This document shows positions 48,775 to 58,850 of a stretch of DNA of 64,000 nucleotides, piece by piece. Origin of the DNA: Spirochaetota bacterium. GTDB taxonomy: Bacteria > Spirochaetota > Spirochaetia > Treponematales > UBA12059. Position 1 is the stretch's first letter. Every line of letters begins with the position of its first letter. The notes under the pieces were generated by a model. The model saw only the letters and a program-made list of their open reading frames with translations, made no database searches and was not told the origin of the DNA. The position numbers were made by a program, and so were the translations under genes. The DNA is taken from positions 469,389 to 533,388 of the forward strand of contig JAKLDN010000001.1 of assembly GCA_022703505.1 (NCBI GenBank). Reading direction: 5' to 3'.

Positions 48775-50196
48775 ATGATCAATTACGTCACGGGTGAGGA
48801 TATAGAGGCACTGGCCAAGTCGGGGAACAGCCGGCTCGTCCTGGGCCCGAACGACAGGCTTACGGGCATAGCCCGGGAAAACTGCGAGCGCTACGGGATC
48901 AGCATCGTCGCACCGGGATCCGACACTTCGGCGGCTTCGCCTCGAAGCGGCGCCGGATCCCATGCCTCGCCCGCGGCTTCTTTCGTGCCCGAGTCCTTCC
49001 GCCCCTCAAGCGCCCCCGCCCGTGTCCCGAGAGCCGGGTCCGGCGGCTCCGGCCCCGAGGGCTACGACATCGAAGCCTGGAGAGCCGAGTTCCCGATCCT
49101 CAAGGAGGCCGTCCACCTGGCCAACTGCTCCCAGTCCCCCCAATGCGACCGGACCCGGGCCGCCGCGGAGGCCTACCTGGACAGCTGGGGCCACATGGGC
49201 ATGGACTGGGACCGCTGGGTCCAGGAGGTCAACCTGGCCAAGGCGGAGTTCGCGCGGATCATCAACGCGGATCCCGAGGAGGTCGCGGTCGGGACTTCGG
49301 TGTCCGAGATCACCAGCACCATCGCCTCGGCCCTGGACTTCGGGGGCAAGCGGCGGAAGGTGGTCGTCACGGACGTGGAGTTCCCGACGGTGGGCCTGGT
49401 GTGGCTGGCCAACGAGAAGTACGGGGCCAAGGTCCAGTTCATCCCCGCCAAGAACGGGATGATCGAGCTGGACGACTACTCCCGGACGGTGGATAAGGAC
49501 ACCCTGATCACCTCCTTCTGCGACGTCTACTACTACAACGGCTTCAAGCAGGACATCGCCGCGATCACCGAGATGGTCCATGCCCAGGGCTCCCTGGCCT
49601 ACCTGGACGCCTACCAGGGCATCGGCACCCACCCGATCGACGTGAAGGCCCTGGACGTGGACATCCTGAGCTCCGGAAACCTGAAATACCTTTTGGGCAT
49701 CCCCGGTATCGCCTTCGTCTACGTGAAGAAGGAGCTGATCCCCTACATGCGCCCGGCCTTCACGGGCTGGTTCGGCCAGGAAAACCCCTTCGCCTTCGAC
49801 ATCCACCACCTGGACTACGCCAGCGACGCCCGGCGCTTCGACAACGGGACCCCCCCGGTCCTGACCTCCTACATAGCCCGGGCGGGTATGGCGATCATCA
49901 ACGAGATCGGGACCGAGGCCATCCAGGCCTGGACGGACAGGCTTTCCGAACACAGCCTGGAGGGCGGCCGCCGCAGGGGCTTCGATATCGCCAGCCCCCA
50001 GGACGTGCGACGCAAGGCGCCGACCACGGCCTTCCGGGTGGGTTCCGACTCCCACGCCGTGGAGGTGGCCCTCCGGGAACGCGGGATCGTGGCCTCCGCC
50101 CGGGGGGACGTCATCCGCTTCGCCCATCATTTCTTCACGAAACCCGAGGATCTGGATTACGCTCTGGACTGTCTGGCGGAGATCCTGAAGCGCTGA
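48775..50196 (+). CDS. Microcompartment-associated class V aminotransferase with N-terminal targeting-like domain
   Basis: A 473-residue PLP enzyme. Residues 1-50 (YVTGEDIEALAKSG then LGPNDRLTGIARENCERYGISIV) resemble the N-terminal region of EutT and similar add-on domains of microcompartment enzymes; a Ser/Ala/Pro-rich linker (about 51-96) joins it to a class V aminotransferase/CsdA-like domain. The PLP Lys is in SSGNLKYLLGIPG, and LAYLDAYQGIGTHPIDV carries the cofactor Asp. First gene of the shell-protein operon. The N-terminal domain probably directs it into the compartment. Substrate unknown; a ureidoglycine-glyoxylate-type transaminase or a desulfurase/epimerase relative are options. 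Confidence 0.88.
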   Translation: MINYVTGEDIEALAKSGNSRLVLGPNDRLTGIARENCERYGISIVAPGSDTSAASPRSGAGSHASPAASFVPESFRPSSAPARVPRAGSGGSGPEGYDIEAWRAEFPILKEAVHLANCSQSPQCDRTRAAAEAYLDSWGHMGMDWDRWVQEVNLAKAEFARIINADPEEVAVGTSVSEITSTIASALDFGGKRRKVVVTDVEFPTVGLVWLANEKYGAKVQFIPAKNGMIELDDYSRTVDKDTLITSFCDVYYYNGFKQDIAAITEMVHAQGSLAYLDAYQGIGTHPIDVKALDVDILSSGNLKYLLGIPGIAFVYVKKELIPYMRPAFTGWFGQENPFAFDIHHLDYASDARRFDNGTPPVLTSYIARAGMAIINEIGTEAIQAWTDRLSEHSLEGGRRRGFDIASPQDVRRKAPTTAFRVGSDSHAVEVALRERGIVASARGDVIRFAHHFFTKPEDLDYALDCLAEILKR

Positions 50197-50215: not shown

Positions 50216-50515
50216 ATGCTTCTGGCCCAGGTCGTCGGAAAGGCCGACTCGTCGGTGAAATCCCCGGGCATCTCGGGGTCCAAGCTCCTCGTGGTGCGGG
50301 GGCTAGGACCGGCCGGGGAGCCGGAGGGGGGACTGGTCATCGCGGTCGACGCGGTGGGCGCGGGCCCCGGGGACACGGTGGCCGTGGCCCAGGGGGGAGC
50401 GGCCCTCAGGGCGGCGGGACTGGAAAAGATCCCCTGCGACGCCGCGGTGGTGGCCATTTTGGATCATGTGTTCTTGAACGGCAAGGAGATAATTTCGAAC
50501 AGGAGGACGAGTTGA
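50216..50515 (+). CDS. Microcompartment vertex protein, EutN/CcmL (BMC-P) family
   Basis: A 99-residue pentamer-forming shell protein that caps the compartment vertices. MLLAQVVGKADSSVKSPGISGSKLLVVRGL and VIAVDAVGAGPGDTVAVAQGGAALRAAG, then CDAAVVAILDHVFLNGKEI are typical of the family. GGGAGG lies upstream. Its stop overlaps the next start (TGATG). Confidence 0.95.
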   Translation: MLLAQVVGKADSSVKSPGISGSKLLVVRGLGPAGEPEGGLVIAVDAVGAGPGDTVAVAQGGAALRAAGLEKIPCDAAVVAILDHVFLNGKEIISNRRTS

Positions 50516-50793
50516 TGAAAGCGTTGGGAATGATCGAGACCCGCGGCTACGTGGCCGCGATCGAGGCCGTGGATACGATGGTCAAGTCCGCCAGCGTCGA
50601 GGTCCTAGGGACCAAGGAAGTGGGCGGCGGACTCGTCTCCGTGTTCGTCCAGGGCGACGTCGGGGCCGTGAAGGCCGCTGTGGACGCCGCAGCCGCTTCC
50701 GTCAAGAAGCTCGGGGAATTGGTGTCCGTGCACATCATCCCCAAGCCCAGCGACGAGACGGTCGCACTGATCCCCGCGGTCCCGAAGAAATAA
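50515..50793 (+). CDS. Microcompartment hexameric shell protein (BMC-H)
   Basis: A 92-residue single-BMC-domain protein of the PduA/EutM type forming shell facets: ALGMIETRGYVAAIEAVDTMVKSASVEVLGTKEVGGGLVSVFVQGDVGAVKAAVDAA and GELVSVHIIPKP. The stretch KEVGGGLVSV places glycines at the central pore, suggesting a small polar pore. The only BMC-H gene in the window. Confidence 0.97.
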   Translation: MKALGMIETRGYVAAIEAVDTMVKSASVEVLGTKEVGGGLVSVFVQGDVGAVKAAVDAAAASVKKLGELVSVHIIPKPSDETVALIPAVPKK

Positions 50794-50805: not shown

Positions 50806-51426
50806 ATGCCGGATTCGGGATTCCAGCTGCGCTCCTACGTCTTCATCGACAGCATGCAGCCCCAGTACGCCGCCTTCTTGGGCTCCGAGCTGGACGGCGA
50901 CGTGCCTCTGGCGGGGATGGCGGAGCTGTGGCTGGAGCTGGCCCCGGGCAGCGAGGTCTACAACCTCCTGGACGCGGCCCTGAAATCGACCCTGGCCAAG
51001 CCGGGGCTCCAGATGGTGGAACGGGAGTTCGGCCTCCTGGAACTCCACTCCGAGTCCGTGGACTCGGTCAAGGACGCGGGCCAGTCGATCCTGGCGGCCT
51101 GCGGACTGACCGCGTCGGACCGGATACGGCCTTCGGTGGTTTCCTCAAAAATCATCAGCAAGGTGAACCCCTACCAGGCCCAGCAGATCAACAAGACCCG
51201 GAAGGGCGCCCTGCTCCTGCCCGGCAAGACCCTGCTGGTGATGGAAGTGGAACCCGCGGCCAACATAGTCCTGGCGGCCAACGCCGCCGAGAAGGCCTCG
51301 GAGATCCAGCTGGTTCATTTCAATCCGTTCGGACGTTTCGGCCGGCTCTTCCTCTCGGGCACGGAGTCCGAGGTGCGGGCCGCGTCGGAAGCGGCCCACG
51401 CCGCGGTCTCGGCGAACGCGGGCTGA
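50806..51426 (+). CDS. Microcompartment tandem-domain shell protein (BMC-T)
   Basis: A 206-residue protein with two BMC folds that would form pseudohexameric trimers. Domain 1 about 10-105 (SYVFIDSMQPQYAAFLGSEL...LLELHSESVDSVKDAGQSIL), domain 2 about 108-206 (IRPSVVSSKIISKVNPYQAQQINKTRKGALLLPGKTLLVMEVEPAANIVLAANAAEKAS ... GRLFLSGTESEVRAASEAA). No Cys cluster for an Fe-S pore is present. AGGAG ribosome site. Confidence 0.88.
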   Translation: MPDSGFQLRSYVFIDSMQPQYAAFLGSELDGDVPLAGMAELWLELAPGSEVYNLLDAALKSTLAKPGLQMVEREFGLLELHSESVDSVKDAGQSILAACGLTASDRIRPSVVSSKIISKVNPYQAQQINKTRKGALLLPGKTLLVMEVEPAANIVLAANAAEKASEIQLVHFNPFGRFGRLFLSGTESEVRAASEAAHAAVSANAG

Positions 51427-51427
51427 C

Positions 51428-53035
51428 ATGGCCGTAAGGAAGGGCCCCTTCCTGCCCGACTGGATAGGCGGGGACCACGGCCGGAGGCCCGCCGGCGAAC
51501 CCGTCTCAAGCCCCCGGGGAGCCCGCTTCCTTCCCGACTGGATACCCTCCGGCCGGGCGGAGGACGCGGCCGCTGCCCCGCCGGCGGGCTACCCGCCCCC
51601 GGCGCGGGGCTTCTCACCGGGCTGGGCCCGGGCGCCCGCCCGAGGGCCCCTGGACGAAGAACCCCCCGGCGGGCGTGGACGGCCCCTGGTCGTCAAGGGG
51701 GGACACTGCGTCGTGCCCTACGCGGGCATCGTCACCCAGGACCTCCTCATCGAGGACGGACGCATCAAGGCCATGGGCCGGGACCTGGATACCGCGGACC
51801 GGGATGTGATCCGGGCGGAAGGCAAGTACGTCCTGCCCGGGCTTGTGGATCCCCATGTCCACCTGGGCATCTTCGCCCCTCTGGACGAGGAGATGGCCAC
51901 GGAAACCTCGTCGGCCCTGGTCAACGGGGTGACCACCGTGGGGCTCTACCTGGGGGGCAAGGGCTCCTACGTGCCCGCCCTGGAAAGCCTCATCGATCTG
52001 ATCCAGACGAAATCCCGGGCGGACGCCTTCGTCCACCTCGTGCTGTTCGACCGGGACCAGCTGGCGGAAGTGCCCCTGTACGCGGACCGCTACGGGGTAC
52101 GCTCCTTCAAGGTCTACATGGCCGGCATCCCCGGGCTCATACCCAGCGCGGACGATGGTTTCCTCCTAGACGCAATGGAGACCGTGGCCGCCCTGGGCGA
52201 GGGGGCGGTGCTCAACATCCACGCGGAGAACTCCCGGGTCCTTGAATGGGCGGACGCCCGGGCCCGGATGGAATTCCCCCAGGGCGGCCTGCGCGCCTGG
52301 GAGGCCAGCCACCCGGCCTTCGCGGAGCGGGAGGCGGTCCAGCGAGCTCTTCTGCTCGCGGAGCGCAGCGGGGCCCGATTATATTTTGTCCACGTTTCAG
52401 CCGCGGAAACCGCGGACCTCATCCGCCGGGCCAAGGCGGAGCGTCCCGGCCGCTTCTACGCGGAGACCACATCACCCTACCTCTCCACGGACTTCGACAG
52501 CCCCCAAGGACCCCTGGCCCTGATGAGCCCTCCTATCCGGAGCGCCCAGGACCGGGCCGCTCTCTGGAGGGCCCTGGAGGACGGCACCCTCGACACGATC
52601 GGAACGGACCACACTCCCCTGACCGCGGAACAGAAGACCGGCGGCCGGAGTTTCTGGGAGACCATGCCCGGGTACCCCGCCGTAGGAACCCACCTGCCCC
52701 TGCTCCTAGACGGCGCCCGGAAACACCACATGAGCGTGGAGCGCCTGGTAGAGAAAGTTTCCGCCAATCCCGCCCGGGTCTTCGGAGTCTACCCCCGCAA
52801 GGGGACGATCCTGGCGGGCTCCGACGCGGATCTGGTCATCGTGGACATGGACCGGATGAAGAGGATCAGCGTGGAGGGCGCCCGGTCCCGGTCGGACTTC
52901 GCCCTGCACCAGGGCGAGTTGGGGATCGGCTGGCCCGTGGCGGTGGTCAAGGGCGGACGAGTCCTGTATCCCGAGGATCCCCGGCTGGACCTGGAGAAGT
53001 TTTCCGGTGCCGCCTACCTGCCCCGCCGCCGCTGA
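51428..53035 (+). CDS. Microcompartment-associated cyclic amidohydrolase (hydantoinase/allantoinase family)
   Basis: A 535-residue ring-opening hydrolase. A metal site typical of the superfamily: VDPHVHLG (two His), carboxylated-Lys candidate in SFKVYMAG, HAEN, YFVHVSA, and Asp in IGTDHTPL. Substrates could be hydantoin, dihydropyrimidine or allantoin. The N-terminal 85 residues are an extra, Pro/Gly-rich extension with FLPDWI at 8-13, FLPDWI at 34-39 and FSPGW at 62-66, like repeated encapsulation signals. It starts one base after the BMC-T stop and depends on coupling. Last gene before the terminator. Confidence 0.88.
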   Translation: MAVRKGPFLPDWIGGDHGRRPAGEPVSSPRGARFLPDWIPSGRAEDAAAAPPAGYPPPARGFSPGWARAPARGPLDEEPPGGRGRPLVVKGGHCVVPYAGIVTQDLLIEDGRIKAMGRDLDTADRDVIRAEGKYVLPGLVDPHVHLGIFAPLDEEMATETSSALVNGVTTVGLYLGGKGSYVPALESLIDLIQTKSRADAFVHLVLFDRDQLAEVPLYADRYGVRSFKVYMAGIPGLIPSADDGFLLDAMETVAALGEGAVLNIHAENSRVLEWADARARMEFPQGGLRAWEASHPAFAEREAVQRALLLAERSGARLYFVHVSAAETADLIRRAKAERPGRFYAETTSPYLSTDFDSPQGPLALMSPPIRSAQDRAALWRALEDGTLDTIGTDHTPLTAEQKTGGRSFWETMPGYPAVGTHLPLLLDGARKHHMSVERLVEKVSANPARVFGVYPRKGTILAGSDADLVIVDMDRMKRISVEGARSRSDFALHQGELGIGWPVAVVKGGRVLYPEDPRLDLEKFSGAAYLPRRR

Positions 53036-53109: not shown

Positions 53110-53766
53110 TCAGCGGTACTTGAACAATGCGTCCAGGGCCCGGCCCCCCGAGGGAGTCAGCACGAAGGGGTTCACGTCGAACTCCGCGATTTCCTCGGAC
53201 TCCGACATCATCCGGGAGAGTTCCGCGATCGCGGAGCAGAGGGGACCCAGGTCGAGGGGTGGAGCTCCCCGGAATCCCCCTGCCAGCACCCGGGCCCGGG
53301 TTTCCAGGACCATGCGGCGGGCCTCCGCCTCGTCGACGGGAGCCAGCCGGAAGGCGGCCTCCTTGAGGAGTTCCGTGAAGATCCCGCCCAGGCCGACCAT
53401 CACCACCGGACCGAAACCGGGGTCCCGGTATCCTCCCAGGATGAATTCCACCCCGCCCTTGACCATCTCCTGGACCAGAACTCCCCGGAGTCCGGACATC
53501 CGCACGATACCGGCGGCGGCGGCCCGCTCCAGGATGCCCCGGTACGCGGCCCGGGCCTCCGCCTCGTCCCGGATCCCGACGGCGACGCCGCCGATCTCGG
53601 TCTTGTGCAGGGCCGAAGGCGCGGAAATCTTGAACACGACGGGGTAGCCGATCCGGGCGGCCGCGGCGACTGCGGCCTCCTCGCTATCCGCCAGTTCCCG
53701 GGCGGCGGCGGGGATGCCCCGGCTCTCCAGGAGGTCCAGGGCGGGGTATTCGTCCAGGGTCCTCAT
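53110..53766 (-). CDS. acdB: ADP-forming acyl-CoA synthetase, beta (ATP-grasp) subunit
   Basis: A 218-residue ATP-grasp subunit: YPVVFKISAPSALHKTEIGGVAVGIRDEAEARAAY, GVLVQEMVKGGVEFILGGYRDPGFGPVVMVGLGGIFTELLKEAAFRLAPV and EIAEFDVNPFVL. With the alpha subunit it makes ATP from acyl-CoA, ADP and phosphate. Separate subunits are the arrangement known from archaeal peptide fermenters. Start overlaps the alpha stop (ATGA). Confidence 0.94.
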   Translation of the reverse strand: MRTLDEYPALDLLESRGIPAAARELADSEEAAVAAAARIGYPVVFKISAPSALHKTEIGGVAVGIRDEAEARAAYRGILERAAAAGIVRMSGLRGVLVQEMVKGGVEFILGGYRDPGFGPVVMVGLGGIFTELLKEAAFRLAPVDEAEARRMVLETRARVLAGGFRGAPPLDLGPLCSAIAELSRMMSESEEIAEFDVNPFVLTPSGGRALDALFKYR

Positions 53767-55184
53767 GAAGGCCTCCTTCCGCGGAACTCGGCATAGCTTC
53801 GAAGGGCGGCCAAGGCGCGCACGGCCCTCTCGGGGCTCTCGAAGGTGGGGATGCCCGCCTTCTCCAGGATCCCCCGGGACTCCCGGGTCCAGTCCCCGGA
53901 AAGGACCGCGGGCAGGACCGGCTTGGAAACGCCCTCGCCCTGGAGGCGTTCCACGACCTCCGCCATGCCACGGGCCATGGCGGCCAGGTCCAGGAAGAGG
54001 GTCGCCACGGTGATGAAGAGGACTGCGTCCACCCCGGGATCCCGCAGGAGGATCTCCAGGGATTCCACGTGCTCCCGGGCCCCCGCGGCGGCGGTGATGT
54101 CCGCGTGACCCTCGGGGTGGCAGATCGAGGCGATGGGGGGCAGGCAGTCCTTGAGGGCGGACTTGGTAGCGTCCGAGACCCGGGCGGGTTGGAAGATGCC
54201 GGCCGATGCCAGCTCGTCCACGCAGAGGATACCCGGGCCGCCGGCCTGGGTCAGGATGAAGACCCGGTTTCCAGCCGGCAGGGGCAGGGAGTCGAAGGCC
54301 CGGAGTACGTCCGAGAGCTCCTCCACCGAGCGCACCCTGGTGATCCCGTGCTGGCGGAAGGCCCCGTCGTAGAGTGCATCGGTCCCAGCCAGGGATCCCG
54401 TGTGGGAGCTGGCCGCCTGGGCGCCCTCGTCGGTGCGGCCGACCTTGAGGATCGCCACGGGCTTATCCCGGGCCACCTCGCCCGCGGCCTCCACCAGGCG
54501 CCGTGCCTCCGCGGATCCCTCCACGTACACCCCGAGCACCCGGGTCGCGGGATCGGCGCCCGCGTAGGATACGGACTCGATGATGTCCACGTCCGCCATG
54601 TTCCCCACGGTCACGAACTTGTTGAAACCCACTCCCCCGGCGGGGGAGGCGGCCCAGTTCATGAGGAGCCAGGCGCCTACGGCCCCGCTCTGGGACACGA
54701 AGGAAATCCCTCCCGGCACGTGGGTGATCCCGGCGATGAAGGTGGTGTCCACCTTCCGGTTGACGTCGATGACCCCCACGCAATTGGGCCCCAAAAGGCG
54801 GATCCCCCGGGAACGGCAGAACTCGGTCAGGGACTTCTGCCAGGCGGTCCCCTCGGGAGTCTTCACCTCCGCGAAGCCCGCGGCCGCGCAGACCACGGCC
54901 CGGATGTCGCCCTGCTTCCGCATGCGCCGGTCCATCTGGGCCAGGATGTCCGGGGTGGCCGCAGCCGGCGCGGAGAGCACCACGAGGTTCACCTCGTTCT
55001 CTATGGCATCCAGGGACGGGCGGCTCGGGCGGCCCAGGATCTCCCCGCCGGAGGCGTTCACGGGATAGAGGCCCCCCGGGTATCCCGCGGCGACCATGTT
55101 GGCCAGGATCTGGTATCCCGCCTTGGAAGGATTCGCGGACGCGCCGATCACGGCGCAGCCCGCGGAGTCGAAGAAGGAATCCAT
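53763..55184 (-). CDS. acdA: ADP-forming acyl-CoA synthetase, alpha subunit
   Basis: A 473-residue subunit with a CoA-binding domain (GCAVIGASANPSKAGYQILANMVAAGYPGGLYPVNAS), LLGPNCVGVIDVNRK, succinyl-CoA-ligase-like region with the phosphohistidine candidate in ASSHTGSLAGTDALYDGAFRQHG and C-terminal ligase fold. Starts one base after the porB stop (TAGCATG), so coupled to the oxidoreductase that supplies acyl-CoA. Confidence 0.94.
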   Translation of the reverse strand: MDSFFDSAGCAVIGASANPSKAGYQILANMVAAGYPGGLYPVNASGGEILGRPSRPSLDAIENEVNLVVLSAPAAATPDILAQMDRRMRKQGDIRAVVCAAAGFAEVKTPEGTAWQKSLTEFCRSRGIRLLGPNCVGVIDVNRKVDTTFIAGITHVPGGISFVSQSGAVGAWLLMNWAASPAGGVGFNKFVTVGNMADVDIIESVSYAGADPATRVLGVYVEGSAEARRLVEAAGEVARDKPVAILKVGRTDEGAQAASSHTGSLAGTDALYDGAFRQHGITRVRSVEELSDVLRAFDSLPLPAGNRVFILTQAGGPGILCVDELASAGIFQPARVSDATKSALKDCLPPIASICHPEGHADITAAAGAREHVESLEILLRDPGVDAVLFITVATLFLDLAAMARGMAEVVERLQGEGVSKPVLPAVLSGDWTRESRGILEKAGIPTFESPERAVRALAALRSYAEFRGRRPS

Positions 55185-55185
55185 G

Positions 55186-56103
55186 CTAGGCACGGCCGCC
55201 GCCCCCGGCGCTGACCGCCTCCAGGAAGCGGTACCGTTCCTCGGCCAGGTCCTTGAGCTCCGCGATCCGCTCCGGCCCCAGGTGGGAGAACTTCTTGATC
55301 CGGGAGGTGTAGTCCTCGAGCGGAAGGGGATTCGGCACGGGTACGGTGATCTTGAACTTTCGGTTCCGGGCCTCGTAGAGTGGGAAAAACCGGGTCTTGA
55401 CGGCCAGGCGGGCGACGGAGATCGACTCCTCCGCCCGGATCCCCCAGCCCGTCAGGCACGGGTTGTACACGTGGATGTAGGCCAGGCCCTCCTTGACCTT
55501 CATGGCCTCCTCGACCTTCCGTACCAGGTCGGGGATGTAGGCGGGAGACGCCGTGGCCACGTAGGGCACGTCGTGCATGGCCATGATCATGGGGAAGTCC
55601 TTGCCGTGCTGGCGCTTCCCGCCCTGCCCCTCCTTGCTGACCGGGGTCGTGCTGGTCCAGGACCCCTTGGAGGTCGAGGAACTGCGCTGGTACCCGGTGT
55701 TCATGTAGCCTTCGTTGTCGTAGCAGATGTAGATGATCCGGTCCCCCCGCTCGGCGACCCCGGAGAGGGCCTGGAAGCCCGCGTCCACGGTGGCGCCGTC
55801 GCCGGCGAAGGCCACCACGTGGGCGTCCCGGCCCTTGGCGTCCAGGGCCAGCCGGATGCCGGCCAGCATGCTGGCCGTGTTGTCCAGGAGGGGGAAGAAG
55901 ACGGGAACCTTGGCCCCGGACTGCTTGTTCCAGCCGACCACCCCGACGCCGCCCATGCAGCCCGGGGGTATGGCCAGGATCGAGTTGGGGCCCAGGACCT
56001 TCATCACGGTCCTCAGGGTGAGTTCCACGTTGCACCCCACGCAGGCGGAGATGCCAGGGGATATCATGTCCTCGCGCTCGGCGAGGAGGTCCAGGGCGCT
56101 CAT
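55186..56103 (-). CDS. porB: 2-oxoacid:ferredoxin oxidoreductase, beta subunit (thiamine diphosphate)
   Basis: A 305-residue subunit of the pyruvate-type oxidoreductase. It has Cys residues for a [4Fe-4S] cluster (ACVGCN, PPGCMGG, YNPCLTGW) and the thiamine motif GDGATVDAGFQALSGVAERGDRIIYICYDNEGYMNTGYQRSSST. ATGA overlap with porA. Substrate (pyruvate or branched 2-oxoacid) cannot be settled. Confidence 0.92.
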   Translation of the reverse strand: MSALDLLAEREDMISPGISACVGCNVELTLRTVMKVLGPNSILAIPPGCMGGVGVVGWNKQSGAKVPVFFPLLDNTASMLAGIRLALDAKGRDAHVVAFAGDGATVDAGFQALSGVAERGDRIIYICYDNEGYMNTGYQRSSSTSKGSWTSTTPVSKEGQGGKRQHGKDFPMIMAMHDVPYVATASPAYIPDLVRKVEEAMKVKEGLAYIHVYNPCLTGWGIRAEESISVARLAVKTRFFPLYEARNRKFKITVPVPNPLPLEDYTSRIKKFSHLGPERIAELKDLAEERYRFLEAVSAGGGGRA

Positions 56104-57299
56104 GCTTTCACTCCTTTCCGGGGCGCCCAGAGCCAGACCGCGCTTTGGGGGGTCCGGCCCGCGTCCACGGCGGCCACGATCTCGTCGAAGGCCTTCGATA
56201 CGAGACCCAGGGTGATGTCCTCGCCTCCGAGCCCGCCGACGAAGGGGACCGAGGGGAGGGTCCTGCCGGATTCGTACAGGGCGGAACGGACTTCCTGGTA
56301 CACGATTCCGGTGTTCCATCCGAACGACACGTTCCGGTCGATCACGCCGAAGCCCTTGACCCGGGCCAGGGCCGCGGCGACCGCCGCCTTCGGGAAGGGC
56401 CGGAGGCAGCGCACCTTCACGAGGCCGATCCGGACTCCCGCGGCGCGCTTCTCGTCCACCATCTCCCGGCAGGCCCCGGTGACGGAACCGAGGGTGACCA
56501 CCGCGTACTCGGCGTCCTCCATGCGGTAGAGGTCCAGGGCGCCGCCCCAGGAACGGCCGGTTAACGCCGCGTAGGCCTTGTCCGTCTCCTCGACGACCCC
56601 CAGGGCCGCGGCCATGGAGTCCATGTGCTTCTTGCGGTACTCCATGACCAGGTAGCCGCTGGTGAGCGGATCGATCGCCATGGGCTTGCGGGGGTCCAGG
56701 ATCTGATGCTTCGCCTCGTAGGGAGGTAGGAAGGCGTCGATCTCAGCCTGTTCCGGAACCTCCACGCGCTCGGTCATGTGGGATAGGTAGAAACCGTCGT
56801 AGCAGACGTTGATGGGCAGGAGGACCCGGGGATCCTCGGCGATGCGGAAGGCCTGGATAGTCTGGTCCAGGATCTCCTGGTTGTCCTCCACGTAGATTTG
56901 GATCCATCCCGCGTCCCGGAGGGTCAGGGAATCCTGGGGTCCGCCCCAGACCGACTGGGGGGATATCATCTCCCGGTTCACGATGTTCATCACGATGGGA
57001 AGTCGGAGGGTGGAAGCCCGGAAATAGGGCTCGTACATCAGGGCCAATCCCTGGGAGGAGGTGGCGGTGTAGCAGCGCGCTCCGGCCAGGGACGCCCCGC
57101 TCAGGATGGACATGGCGGAGTGCTCGGACTCCACCTCCGTCATTCGGCTGGACAGGGAGCCCTCCGCGGCGAAGAGGGTCAAATACTCCACGACAGGAGT
57201 CTGGGGGGTGATGGGGTACGCGGCGATCACCTCCGGCCGAGCCAACCGGGCGGCCGTGGCGGCGGCGTAGTTCCCGTTCATGACGGCTACGGTGCTCAT
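56100..57299 (-). CDS. porA: 2-oxoacid:ferredoxin oxidoreductase, alpha subunit
   Basis: A 399-residue subunit: AYPITPQTPVVEYL, EVESEHSAMSILSGASLAGARCYTATSSQGLALMYEPYFRAS and VWGGPQDSLTLRDAGWIQIYVEDNQEILDQTIQAFRIAED. Closest in pattern to PorA-type subunits. ATGA overlaps with porD and porB. Confidence 0.93.
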   Translation of the reverse strand: MSTVAVMNGNYAAATAARLARPEVIAAYPITPQTPVVEYLTLFAAEGSLSSRMTEVESEHSAMSILSGASLAGARCYTATSSQGLALMYEPYFRASTLRLPIVMNIVNREMISPQSVWGGPQDSLTLRDAGWIQIYVEDNQEILDQTIQAFRIAEDPRVLLPINVCYDGFYLSHMTERVEVPEQAEIDAFLPPYEAKHQILDPRKPMAIDPLTSGYLVMEYRKKHMDSMAAALGVVEETDKAYAALTGRSWGGALDLYRMEDAEYAVVTLGSVTGACREMVDEKRAAGVRIGLVKVRCLRPFPKAAVAAALARVKGFGVIDRNVSFGWNTGIVYQEVRSALYESGRTLPSVPFVGGLGGEDITLGLVSKAFDEIVAAVDAGRTPQSAVWLWAPRKGVKA

Positions 57300-57562
57300 T
57301 TCCTTCCCTCCCGGATCATGGCTATGCACTGCTTCGGGCATTCGGCGGCACAGACCGCGCAGCCCTTGCAGTAGCCCAGGTCGATCACGAAACGGCCTTC
57401 GACCCTCCGGACGGAGTTGGTCGGACAGTAGAGGAGGCAGGTGCCACAGCGGCTGCACTTCTCCTGGTCTATCTCCGGACGCTGGGTCCGCCAATCCCCG
57501 GTGTTGGCGGCGTAGATGCCCTCGCCCACCGGACATACGTAGTCTTTTTCCAACGTGCTCAT
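57296..57562 (-). CDS. porD: 2-oxoacid:ferredoxin oxidoreductase, delta (ferredoxin-like) subunit
   Basis: An 88-residue 2[4Fe-4S] subunit: CSRCGTCLLYCP and CKGCAVCAAECP. It passes electrons from the thiamine site to free ferredoxin. The N-terminal VCPVGEGIYAANTGDWRTQRPEID is typical of PorD. Confidence 0.95.
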   Translation of the reverse strand: MSTLEKDYVCPVGEGIYAANTGDWRTQRPEIDQEKCSRCGTCLLYCPTNSVRRVEGRFVIDLGYCKGCAVCAAECPKQCIAMIREGRK

Positions 57563-57574
57563 GATTTCGCTCCC

Positions 57575-58123
57575 TCAACGCAACCGGATGACCTGGGCCG
57601 CCTCGAACGCTTCGCCGAGGAGGTCCGCGTTCTCCCTGCCCCAGAACTCCTCCACCTTGGAGGCCACGTCCGAAAGCTCAACCCACCCCGTGCCCTTCAC
57701 GAAGGCGCCCAGCATCGCCGTGTTCGTGATGGGCTTGCCCAACCTGCGAAGGGCAAGTCCCGTGGCGTCCACCAGGACGACTGTCCCAACGCTACGAGGC
57801 AGGTCCAGATCCTCCACCCGGGATCCCGGTTCGGAGTTCAAGATGAGCCACCCGCCGTCTTTGAGGCCCTCGAACACGTCGACGGCCTTGCGAAGGGTCC
57901 CGTCCAGGACTATGACGCAGTCCGGGGTATAGACCTGTGTCTTGGGACGGATGGGTCGTTCGTCCAGGCGCACGAAGGAGCTGACCGGCGCGCCTTGCCG
58001 CTCGAATCCGAAAAAGGGGATGGAATTGCCGTAACCGCCCTCGAGCACCTTGGCGGTGACGATTATCTCGGCGGCCTTGACGGTTCCCATCCCTCCGCGG
58101 CCGTGAAGCCGTATTTCTTTCAT
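57575..58123 (-). CDS. porG: 2-oxoacid:ferredoxin oxidoreductase, gamma subunit
   Basis: A 182-residue subunit: EIRLHGRGGMGTVKAAEIIVTAKVLEGGYGNSIPFFGFERQGAPVSSFVRLD. First gene of porG-porD-porA-porB-acdA-acdB. AGGAGGAG lies upstream of the ATG at 58123; the longer frame above it crosses the promoter and is rejected. Confidence 0.94.
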   Translation of the reverse strand: MKEIRLHGRGGMGTVKAAEIIVTAKVLEGGYGNSIPFFGFERQGAPVSSFVRLDERPIRPKTQVYTPDCVIVLDGTLRKAVDVFEGLKDGGWLILNSEPGSRVEDLDLPRSVGTVVLVDATGLALRRLGKPITNTAMLGAFVKGTGWVELSDVASKVEEFWGRENADLLGEAFEAAQVIRLR

Positions 58124-58167
58124 CTGGATACTCCTCCTGATATCAGGAACATCACACGATTTCACTT

Positions 58168-58221: not shown

Positions 58222-58361
58222 ATCTTTCATTCTGAAAGCCGATGTCTCCCACGGAAGACTTTTCGACAATTCAACGCCCGGGAGCCGGACGATTGCGTTA
58301 CCGGCCCGAGGCACGTACAATGCCCAAGAACCATTCCGGAAACATGGAAGGCGGTTGCGCT

Positions 58362-58850
58362 ATGAACGAAAGCCTCATTCCCAAAAAAGGCCCCGGCGCG
58401 GATACGGTGGATGATATCGACCGAAAGATCCTGGCGGTCCTGATCCAGGACAGCCGGATCACCTATTCCGAACTGGCGGGTATCGTCGGAATTTCCCGCA
58501 TCAGCGTCAAGGAGCGAGTCCTGGCCATGCAGAAGCGGGAGATCATCGAGAAATTCACGATCCAGATCCCCGCGAAATTCCTGGGAAAACCCCTGCCCGT
58601 CTTCTTCGAGATCCAAGTTTCCCCGGAGACCATCCACAAAGTCGCGGAAGCACTCTCGGAACACCCGGACATCACCATCGTCTACCAGATGACCGGGATG
58701 AACTGCCTCCACGTCCACGCCTTTTTCGTGAACGTGGAGGACGTGTCCGCCTTCATCAACGAGTTCCTGTCGAGCCTCCCCGGAATCCAGAGCGTCAACA
58801 CCCAGTTCCTGCTCAAGCGGTACAAGGCCGACCGGAGCATGGTGGTCTAG
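58362..58850 (+). CDS. Lrp/AsnC-family transcriptional regulator
   Basis: A 162-residue regulator: DTVDDIDRKILAVLIQDSRITYSELAGIVGISRISVKERVLAMQKREIIEKFTIQI (helix-turn-helix) then a RAM-type domain (LPVFFEIQVSPETIHKVAEALSEHPDITIVYQMTGMNCLHVHAFF). The ATG at 58362 is 11 bases after GGAAGG; an ATG at 58320 (with GAGG) would add 14 residues. Divergent from por-acd with overlapping promoters, so a likely regulator of that operon. Confidence 0.88.
   Translation: MNESLIPKKGPGADTVDDIDRKILAVLIQDSRITYSELAGIVGISRISVKERVLAMQKREIIEKFTIQIPAKFLGKPLPVFFEIQVSPETIHKVAEALSEHPDITIVYQMTGMNCLHVHAFFVNVEDVSAFINEFLSSLPGIQSVNTQFLLKRYKADRSMVV

Follow-up and report, generated by a model that had tools for sequence, protein, structure and literature searches.

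Organization of the microcompartment locus

The stretch of DNA analysed here, referred to as the window, comprises 64,000 nucleotides of a Spirochaetota genome and contains a set of bacterial microcompartment (BMC) genes flanked by two candidate cargo enzymes. A class V aminotransferase-fold PLP enzyme (48775..50196, plus strand) is followed on the same strand by the shell vertex protein BMC-P of the EutN/CcmL type (50216..50515), an EutM/PduA-like BMC-H shell protein (50515..50793) and a BMC-T shell protein of the CcmP-like double-domain type (50806..51426). Downstream of these lies, again on the plus strand, the gene of a hydantoinase/dihydropyrimidinase-like amidohydrolase of 535 amino acids (51428..53035). 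Convergent to this group, on the minus strand, are genes for the beta and alpha subunits of an ADP-forming acyl-CoA synthetase-like enzyme (53110..55193) and for the beta, alpha, delta and gamma subunits of a 2-oxoacid:ferredoxin oxidoreductase (55186..58165), none of which carries an extension. A regulator of the Lrp/AsnC family (58242..58850, plus strand) is also found in the orthologous loci.

Wherever the available sequence reaches far enough, which is the case at four loci (the window, L015, L016 and L017), the oxidoreductase and synthetase genes are present, convergent at two loci and divergent at the other two. This co-occurrence in differing arrangements points to a functional linkage with the microcompartment. 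Of the genes at 48.7–58.9 kb that were scanned with Pfam, none matched aldehyde dehydrogenase (PF00171). Our guess at a pathway would lead from a cyclic amide to an amino acid, then to a keto acid and an acyl-CoA, and finally to ATP. Two neighbouring genes of the orthologous loci are to be noted: a xanthine dehydrogenase-type molybdoenzyme gene (L015:53-2512) adjoins the closest orthologous locus, and in L039 the aminotransferase gene is immediately preceded by another class V aminotransferase gene, which the end of the contig truncates (L039:4441-5229).

The locus resembles the BUF (BMC of unknown function) loci in its complete shell set, in its amidohydrolase and in the absence of an aldehyde dehydrogenase among the identified genes (PMC4207490). 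However, BUF as described in 2014 was restricted to Firmicutes and contained deaminases, a carboxy-lyase and formiminotransferases (PMC4207490), whereas the present locus has the class V aminotransferase, the 2-oxoacid oxidoreductase and the acyl-CoA synthetase.

A repeated motif in the N-terminal extension of the amidohydrolase

The amidohydrolase belongs to the hydantoinases/dihydropyrimidinases by its catalytic fold and its metal-site residues; the HxH motif, the region of the carboxylated lysine, the histidine and the aspartate are all kept. It stays below every curated equivalog cut-off. The catalytic domain starts near residue 87, where the hydantoinase profiles begin (87–88). Residues 1–86 (51428..51685, plus strand) form an N-terminal extension with 36% proline plus glycine. 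The start codon lies 1 bp after the BMC-T stop codon in the window, and in the closest orthologue (L006/L015) the amidohydrolase start overlaps the BMC-T stop as TGATG, which rules out a mis-called start.

Three copies of an F-x-P-x-W motif are located in this tail: FLPDWI at residues 8–13 (51449..51466), the same FLPDWI at residues 34–39 (51527..51544) and FSPGWA at residues 62–67 (51611..51628). Their start-to-start spacing is 26 and then 28 residues, exactly as the preliminary description had it. That description had also taken the copies for a short linear motif repeated along a Pro/Gly-rich linker, and the reading holds. At least three F-x-P-x-W motifs appeared 0 times in 200,000 shuffles of the enzyme's own extension. 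The longest run free of proline and glycine is 8 residues, which leaves no helix-capable stretch in the tail and bears out the earlier view that it is not a standard helical encapsulation peptide. The tail appears to be disordered, to judge by a low-confidence model and by its composition, for which the Uversky values lie close to the boundary; the single-sequence AlphaFold model of the amidohydrolase has a mean pLDDT of 39 and is too poor for use.

At the DNA level the strict form F-[x]-P-[DE]-W occurs at 6 sites in the whole genome. Two of them are the amidohydrolase tail copies. The remaining sites each stand alone: unrelated proteins, among them a TrkH-like transporter, account for three, and a frame of 32 codons holds the fourth. 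This rules out that the motif is widespread in the genome. Recent tandem duplication of a longer unit was likewise rejected: the copies are alike only over the six-residue motif, and the spacing differs in every orthologue.

Conservation of the motif among orthologues

Orthologues were sought in 1,718 genome searches within the phylum, many genomes being covered repeatedly, and four further loci were obtained. Their amidohydrolases are 67–68% (L006/L015), about 50% (L007/L016), 48% (L008/L017) and 51% (L039) identical to the window enzyme. All four belong to one class, with a patchy distribution, and L039 comes from a different family of that class. The five enzymes come from three families in all, two of which share an order. 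The BMC-P/-H/-T trio directly adjoins the amidohydrolase and aminotransferase genes at all five loci. Outside the phylum, one genome-contig scan with strict peptides gave only a dihydroorotase; two viral-contig scans yielded no matches.

Every one of the five amidohydrolases beside shell genes carries the motif in its tail. The copies are FVPDWV, FLPDWI and FLPEWA in L015, FRPGWA and FLPPWV in L016, FVPDWV and FLPSWA in L017, and FLPDWL and FLPEWI in L039. Together with the window these make 12 copies of F-[LV]-P-x-W-[IVLA] in five tails of about 50–86 residues. Phe, Pro and Trp are invariant in 12/12 copies; position 2 is Leu or Val in 10, position 4 is Asp or Glu in 8, and position 6 is Ile, Val, Leu or Ala in all 12. 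The third copy of the window tail is found in the closest orthologue, as FLPEWA, and is missing from the other three. Although the enzymes are 48–67% identical overall, their tails are unalignable except at the motifs. The only residues invariant after Met1 in the five-way alignment are F8, P10, W12, F34, L35, P36 and W38, all within motifs, and all Phe and Trp residues of the five extensions fall within motif copies. The shuffle p values of the orthologue tails are <5e-6 (L015), 2e-5 (L016), 1e-5 (L017) and 3e-5 (L039). Such shuffles, together with the invariance across orthologues, rule out chance in a low-complexity sequence as the origin of the motif. Across the five tails, the longest stretches lacking proline and glycine measure 8, 6, 6, 5 and 6 residues, and the incompatibility with a helix is common to them all.

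The preliminary description had asked whether motif number and spacing are kept. They are not: the copy number is 2–3 and the copies lie 13–29 residues apart, and the motif alone is preserved. Conserved motifs in varying number and at varying spacing are what one would expect of a short linear motif recognised by a binding pocket, and not of a folded repeat.

Nor was the motif seen in the more distant relatives compared. F-x-P-x-W was found within the first 110 residues in none of 31 amidohydrolase homologues (about 27–37% identity to the window enzyme), a control set that represents homologues outside the family rather than proven shell-free genomes. Thirty of the 31 have at most 35 residues ahead of the catalytic domain, and the remaining one, L002, comes from an over-extended frame. 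The contrast of five out of five with none out of 31 is strong but not phylogenetically independent, because the five orthologues form one clade of one class. Neither of the outcomes that the preliminary description had named as refuting its reading was observed, be it orthologues of the locus lacking the motifs or an equal presence of the motifs in homologues outside.

A related motif and an EutQ-like domain in the aminotransferase

The second candidate cargo enzyme carries a related motif. In the linker of the five aminotransferases (about residues 47–95), Phe70, Pro72 and Phe75 in the window numbering are the only invariant residues (5/5). They belong to FVPESF at residues 70–75 (48982..48999, plus strand) in the window protein, and the five sequences read FVPESF, FTPAEF, FMPNF, FIPSF and FVPEF. 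The linker motif is thus F-x-P-x(1-2)-F, present in one copy per aminotransferase. The single-protein shuffle p values are modest (0.006–0.026), unlike the invariance in all five proteins. Equating this variant with F-x-P-x-W is our judgement from the sequences, since it ends in Phe and has an extra residue in two of the five proteins.

Ahead of the linker, residues 1–46 (48775..48912, plus strand) form a compact mini-domain homologous to residues 2–46 of EutQ. Two aminotransferase orthologues match the start of the EutQ model NF012001 with E values of 3.5e-6 and 3.6e-6, and an HMM built from the five mini-domains picks EutQ among 11 E. coli Eut proteins (E 6.7e-9). The mini-domain is predicted with confidence without an alignment (block pLDDT about 91); the linker has a pLDDT of about 50, and no helix is present in the model beyond residue 46. 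Foldseek returned nothing significant for the mini-domain. The EutQ protein of Salmonella binds the shell through H1/H2 (residues 9–41); a flexible segment comes next, and then H3/H4, which binds cargo peptides (PMC12487888). Residues 2–46 of the aminotransferase match EutQ 2–46 with its shell-binding H1/H2, and a flexible linker follows in both proteins; the cargo-peptide-binding helices H3/H4, however, are replaced here by the F-x-P-x(1-2)-F linker and the PLP enzyme, and the cupin domain is absent. Judging by the homology to the shell-binding segment of EutQ, the aminotransferase can probably attach to the shell by itself. Of the EutM residues implicated in EutQ binding (K53, D57 and Q64), the five BMC-H proteins keep K53 and D57, while Q64 is replaced by Lys. 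We found no description of an EutQ-like mini-domain fused to a PLP enzyme.

Because the aminotransferase carries both the related motif and the EutQ-like N-terminal domain, the repeated-motif reading of the amidohydrolase tail is strengthened and reaches beyond the preliminary description.

A second microcompartment in the same genome

Elsewhere in this genome, outside the window, lies another microcompartment, of SPU-like type (C7:291491-296641; L025, L026). By reading of the sequences rather than by a family scan, its genes are two BMC-H, a BMC-T, EutN, an aldehyde dehydrogenase and DeoC, with an ABC-transporter cluster downstream. Its aldehyde dehydrogenase and DeoC start with ordinary amphipathic helices, and their longest runs free of proline and glycine are 14 and 19 residues. 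Three of the other genomes that carry the hydantoinase-type locus have the microcompartment of that locus and no second one.

The shell proteins of the two types also differ. In the BMC-H of the window (50515..50793) the residues of the encapsulation-peptide groove are small (T, S, A, A, A), and across the five shells of this type small residues occupy every groove position that accommodates PduL-type peptides. The position equivalent to PduA residue 63 is Ala in these five shells and Arg in the SPU-like BMC-H proteins; the exchange A63R abolishes peptide binding in PduA (PMC11157265). This suggests that the two BMC types of the genome differ in their docking chemistry.

Possible function of the motif

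The tail motif probably serves to collect the enzymes in the shell, and as a signal it differs from the usual helix. As to how, we would give about an even chance to a disordered tail whose several docking motifs recruit the enzymes by multivalent binding, with the shell as the most likely receptor. Each copy of F-[LV]-P-x-W-[IVLA] would act as a short linear motif for a common binding site within the microcompartment, for which the lumenal side of the BMC-H or BMC-T tiles is the likeliest place. Characterised hydantoinase relatives are tetrameric, and two to three copies on a tetramer would provide 8–12 weak sites per enzyme. Avidity, and not one helical encapsulation peptide, would then hold and cluster the amidohydrolase. 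The aminotransferase would use the same code, with its single F-x-P-x(1-2)-F variant beside the EutQ-like mini-domain. We infer here that the motif binds a partner, that this partner is the shell and that avidity is its purpose; shell docking is our first choice because a repetitive surface suits the avidity of an oligomeric enzyme with two to three weak motifs. Next come mutual sticking of the tails or docking on the aminotransferase as an adaptor.

Mutual sticking would follow a stickers-and-spacers scheme. The aromatic motifs would associate with one another or with a site on the partner enzyme, the amidohydrolase and the aminotransferase would thereby condense into a joint core, and the EutQ-like domain of the aminotransferase would bring this core to the shell. 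We regard this as possible but on the improbable side, and the same holds for its corollary that the motif is a cargo–cargo and not a cargo–shell signal. Several features fit: aromatic stickers stand within Gly/Pro/Ser/Ala/Arg spacers, both enzymes carry the same type of motif, and the EutQ-like shell-binding domain is found only on the aminotransferase. Since this domain would already give the aminotransferase a route to the shell, its F-x-P-x(1-2)-F motif could serve otherwise. Known precedents agree with the condensation scheme, as the EutQ segment after the shell-binding part binds cargo peptides (PMC12487888) and encapsulation peptides can themselves drive condensation (PMC12339742). However, F-x-P-x-W with its proline in 12/12 copies is tighter than a generic aromatic sticker requires, and a binding site has been identified on neither enzyme.

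An intramolecular role is unlikely. Here the motifs would pack on the surface of the amidohydrolase itself, as a lid or an inter-subunit strap, unrelated to the shell; in favour of this, the polypeptide that bears them is that of a large oligomeric enzyme. But the free variation in copies (2–3) and spacing (13–29 residues) does not suit docking in a fixed geometry, an unrelated fold in the same operon carries a related motif, and homologues of the same fold manage without the motif. We consider it less probable still that the motif fastens the enzymes to the outer face of the shell, or to the oxidoreductase or the acyl-CoA synthetase, without packaging. At 4/4 loci where the sequence reaches far enough, the oxidoreductase and synthetase genes adjoin the shell genes, in differing arrangements and without an extension, which would suit such docking; against it, no precedent was found in the literature searched, and the cargo-type extension is found precisely on those enzymes that are encoded to either side of the shell genes. 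That the motif has no function, its aromatics being kept by chance in a low-complexity, high-GC linker, is very improbable: the tail is indeed rich in Pro, Gly, Ala and Arg and the genome GC-rich, but the shuffle p is at most 3e-5 in five separate proteins, every Phe and Trp lies inside a motif, and the motifs are invariant across three families of the class.

Going beyond shell docking, we tentatively propose, as a possibility that we hold to be doubtful, a second, non-helical class of BMC targeting, in which a multivalent F-x-P-x-[WF] code of one shell type is orthogonal to the helical peptides of the second BMC. If so, two organelles of one cell would sort their cargo by different sequence languages. 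The known single helical signals are hard to recognise; a motif that is defined by its sequence and can be repeated would allow cargo to be searched for by signature, would offer a compact tool for enzyme loading with tunable valency, and would provide a test case for cargo separation where one cell has two microcompartments. It also marks a BMC locus with a hydantoinase-like enzyme, a class V PLP enzyme, a 2-oxoacid oxidoreductase and an acyl-CoA synthetase, and with no aldehyde dehydrogenase among the genes identified.

Comparison with known shell-loading systems

Canonical BMC encapsulation peptides are single amphipathic helices of 15–20 residues (PMC11157265, PMC12339742) and have been described as single helical domains (PMC12339742, PMC12108088). 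The present tail shares with those of PduP/PduD/PduL, EutC/EutE and CcmN the terminal extension, the flexible linker, the location on an enzyme of the shell operon and the absence from outside homologues. It differs in having two to three F-x-P-x-W linear motifs and no helix-capable stretch.

A search of the main text of open-access papers found no description of repeated F-x-P-x-W tails on BMC enzymes. The statement in the preliminary description that no signal of this form had been described thus stands for an enzyme-borne BMC signal in the searchable papers; it does not stand in general, in view of CsoS2 (PMC10484944) and the family 2 encapsulins (PMC8049743, PMC8346489). The cargo of the latter, the cysteine desulfurase CyD and terpene cyclases, is targeted to the shell by disordered N-terminal tails with several motifs (PMC8049743, PMC8346489). 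Like the tail described here, these are long and disordered and carry more than one short conserved motif, and CyD also has a class V aminotransferase fold. However, their shell is of the HK97 type and their motifs (LARLANEFFS, AASPYYFLDG, GPTGLGT) are unlike F-x-P-x-W; the neighbours of the amidohydrolase gene are BMC-P, BMC-H and BMC-T, not an encapsulin shell gene.

In CsoS2, repeated disordered short linear motifs bind the shell proteins of the alpha-carboxysome multivalently (PMC10484944), and the likeness lies in the repetition of short linear motifs along a disordered-looking chain. CsoS2 is a stand-alone scaffold of about 900 residues with an [IV]TG motif about every 8 residues, whereas the present tail is fused to an enzyme; neither [IV]TG motifs nor the N/M/C repeat architecture was found in the 85 residues read of the window tail. 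Since motif-based multivalent shell loading is known from CsoS2, it is not new in principle, and the F-x-P-x-W enzyme tail would be a new form of it.
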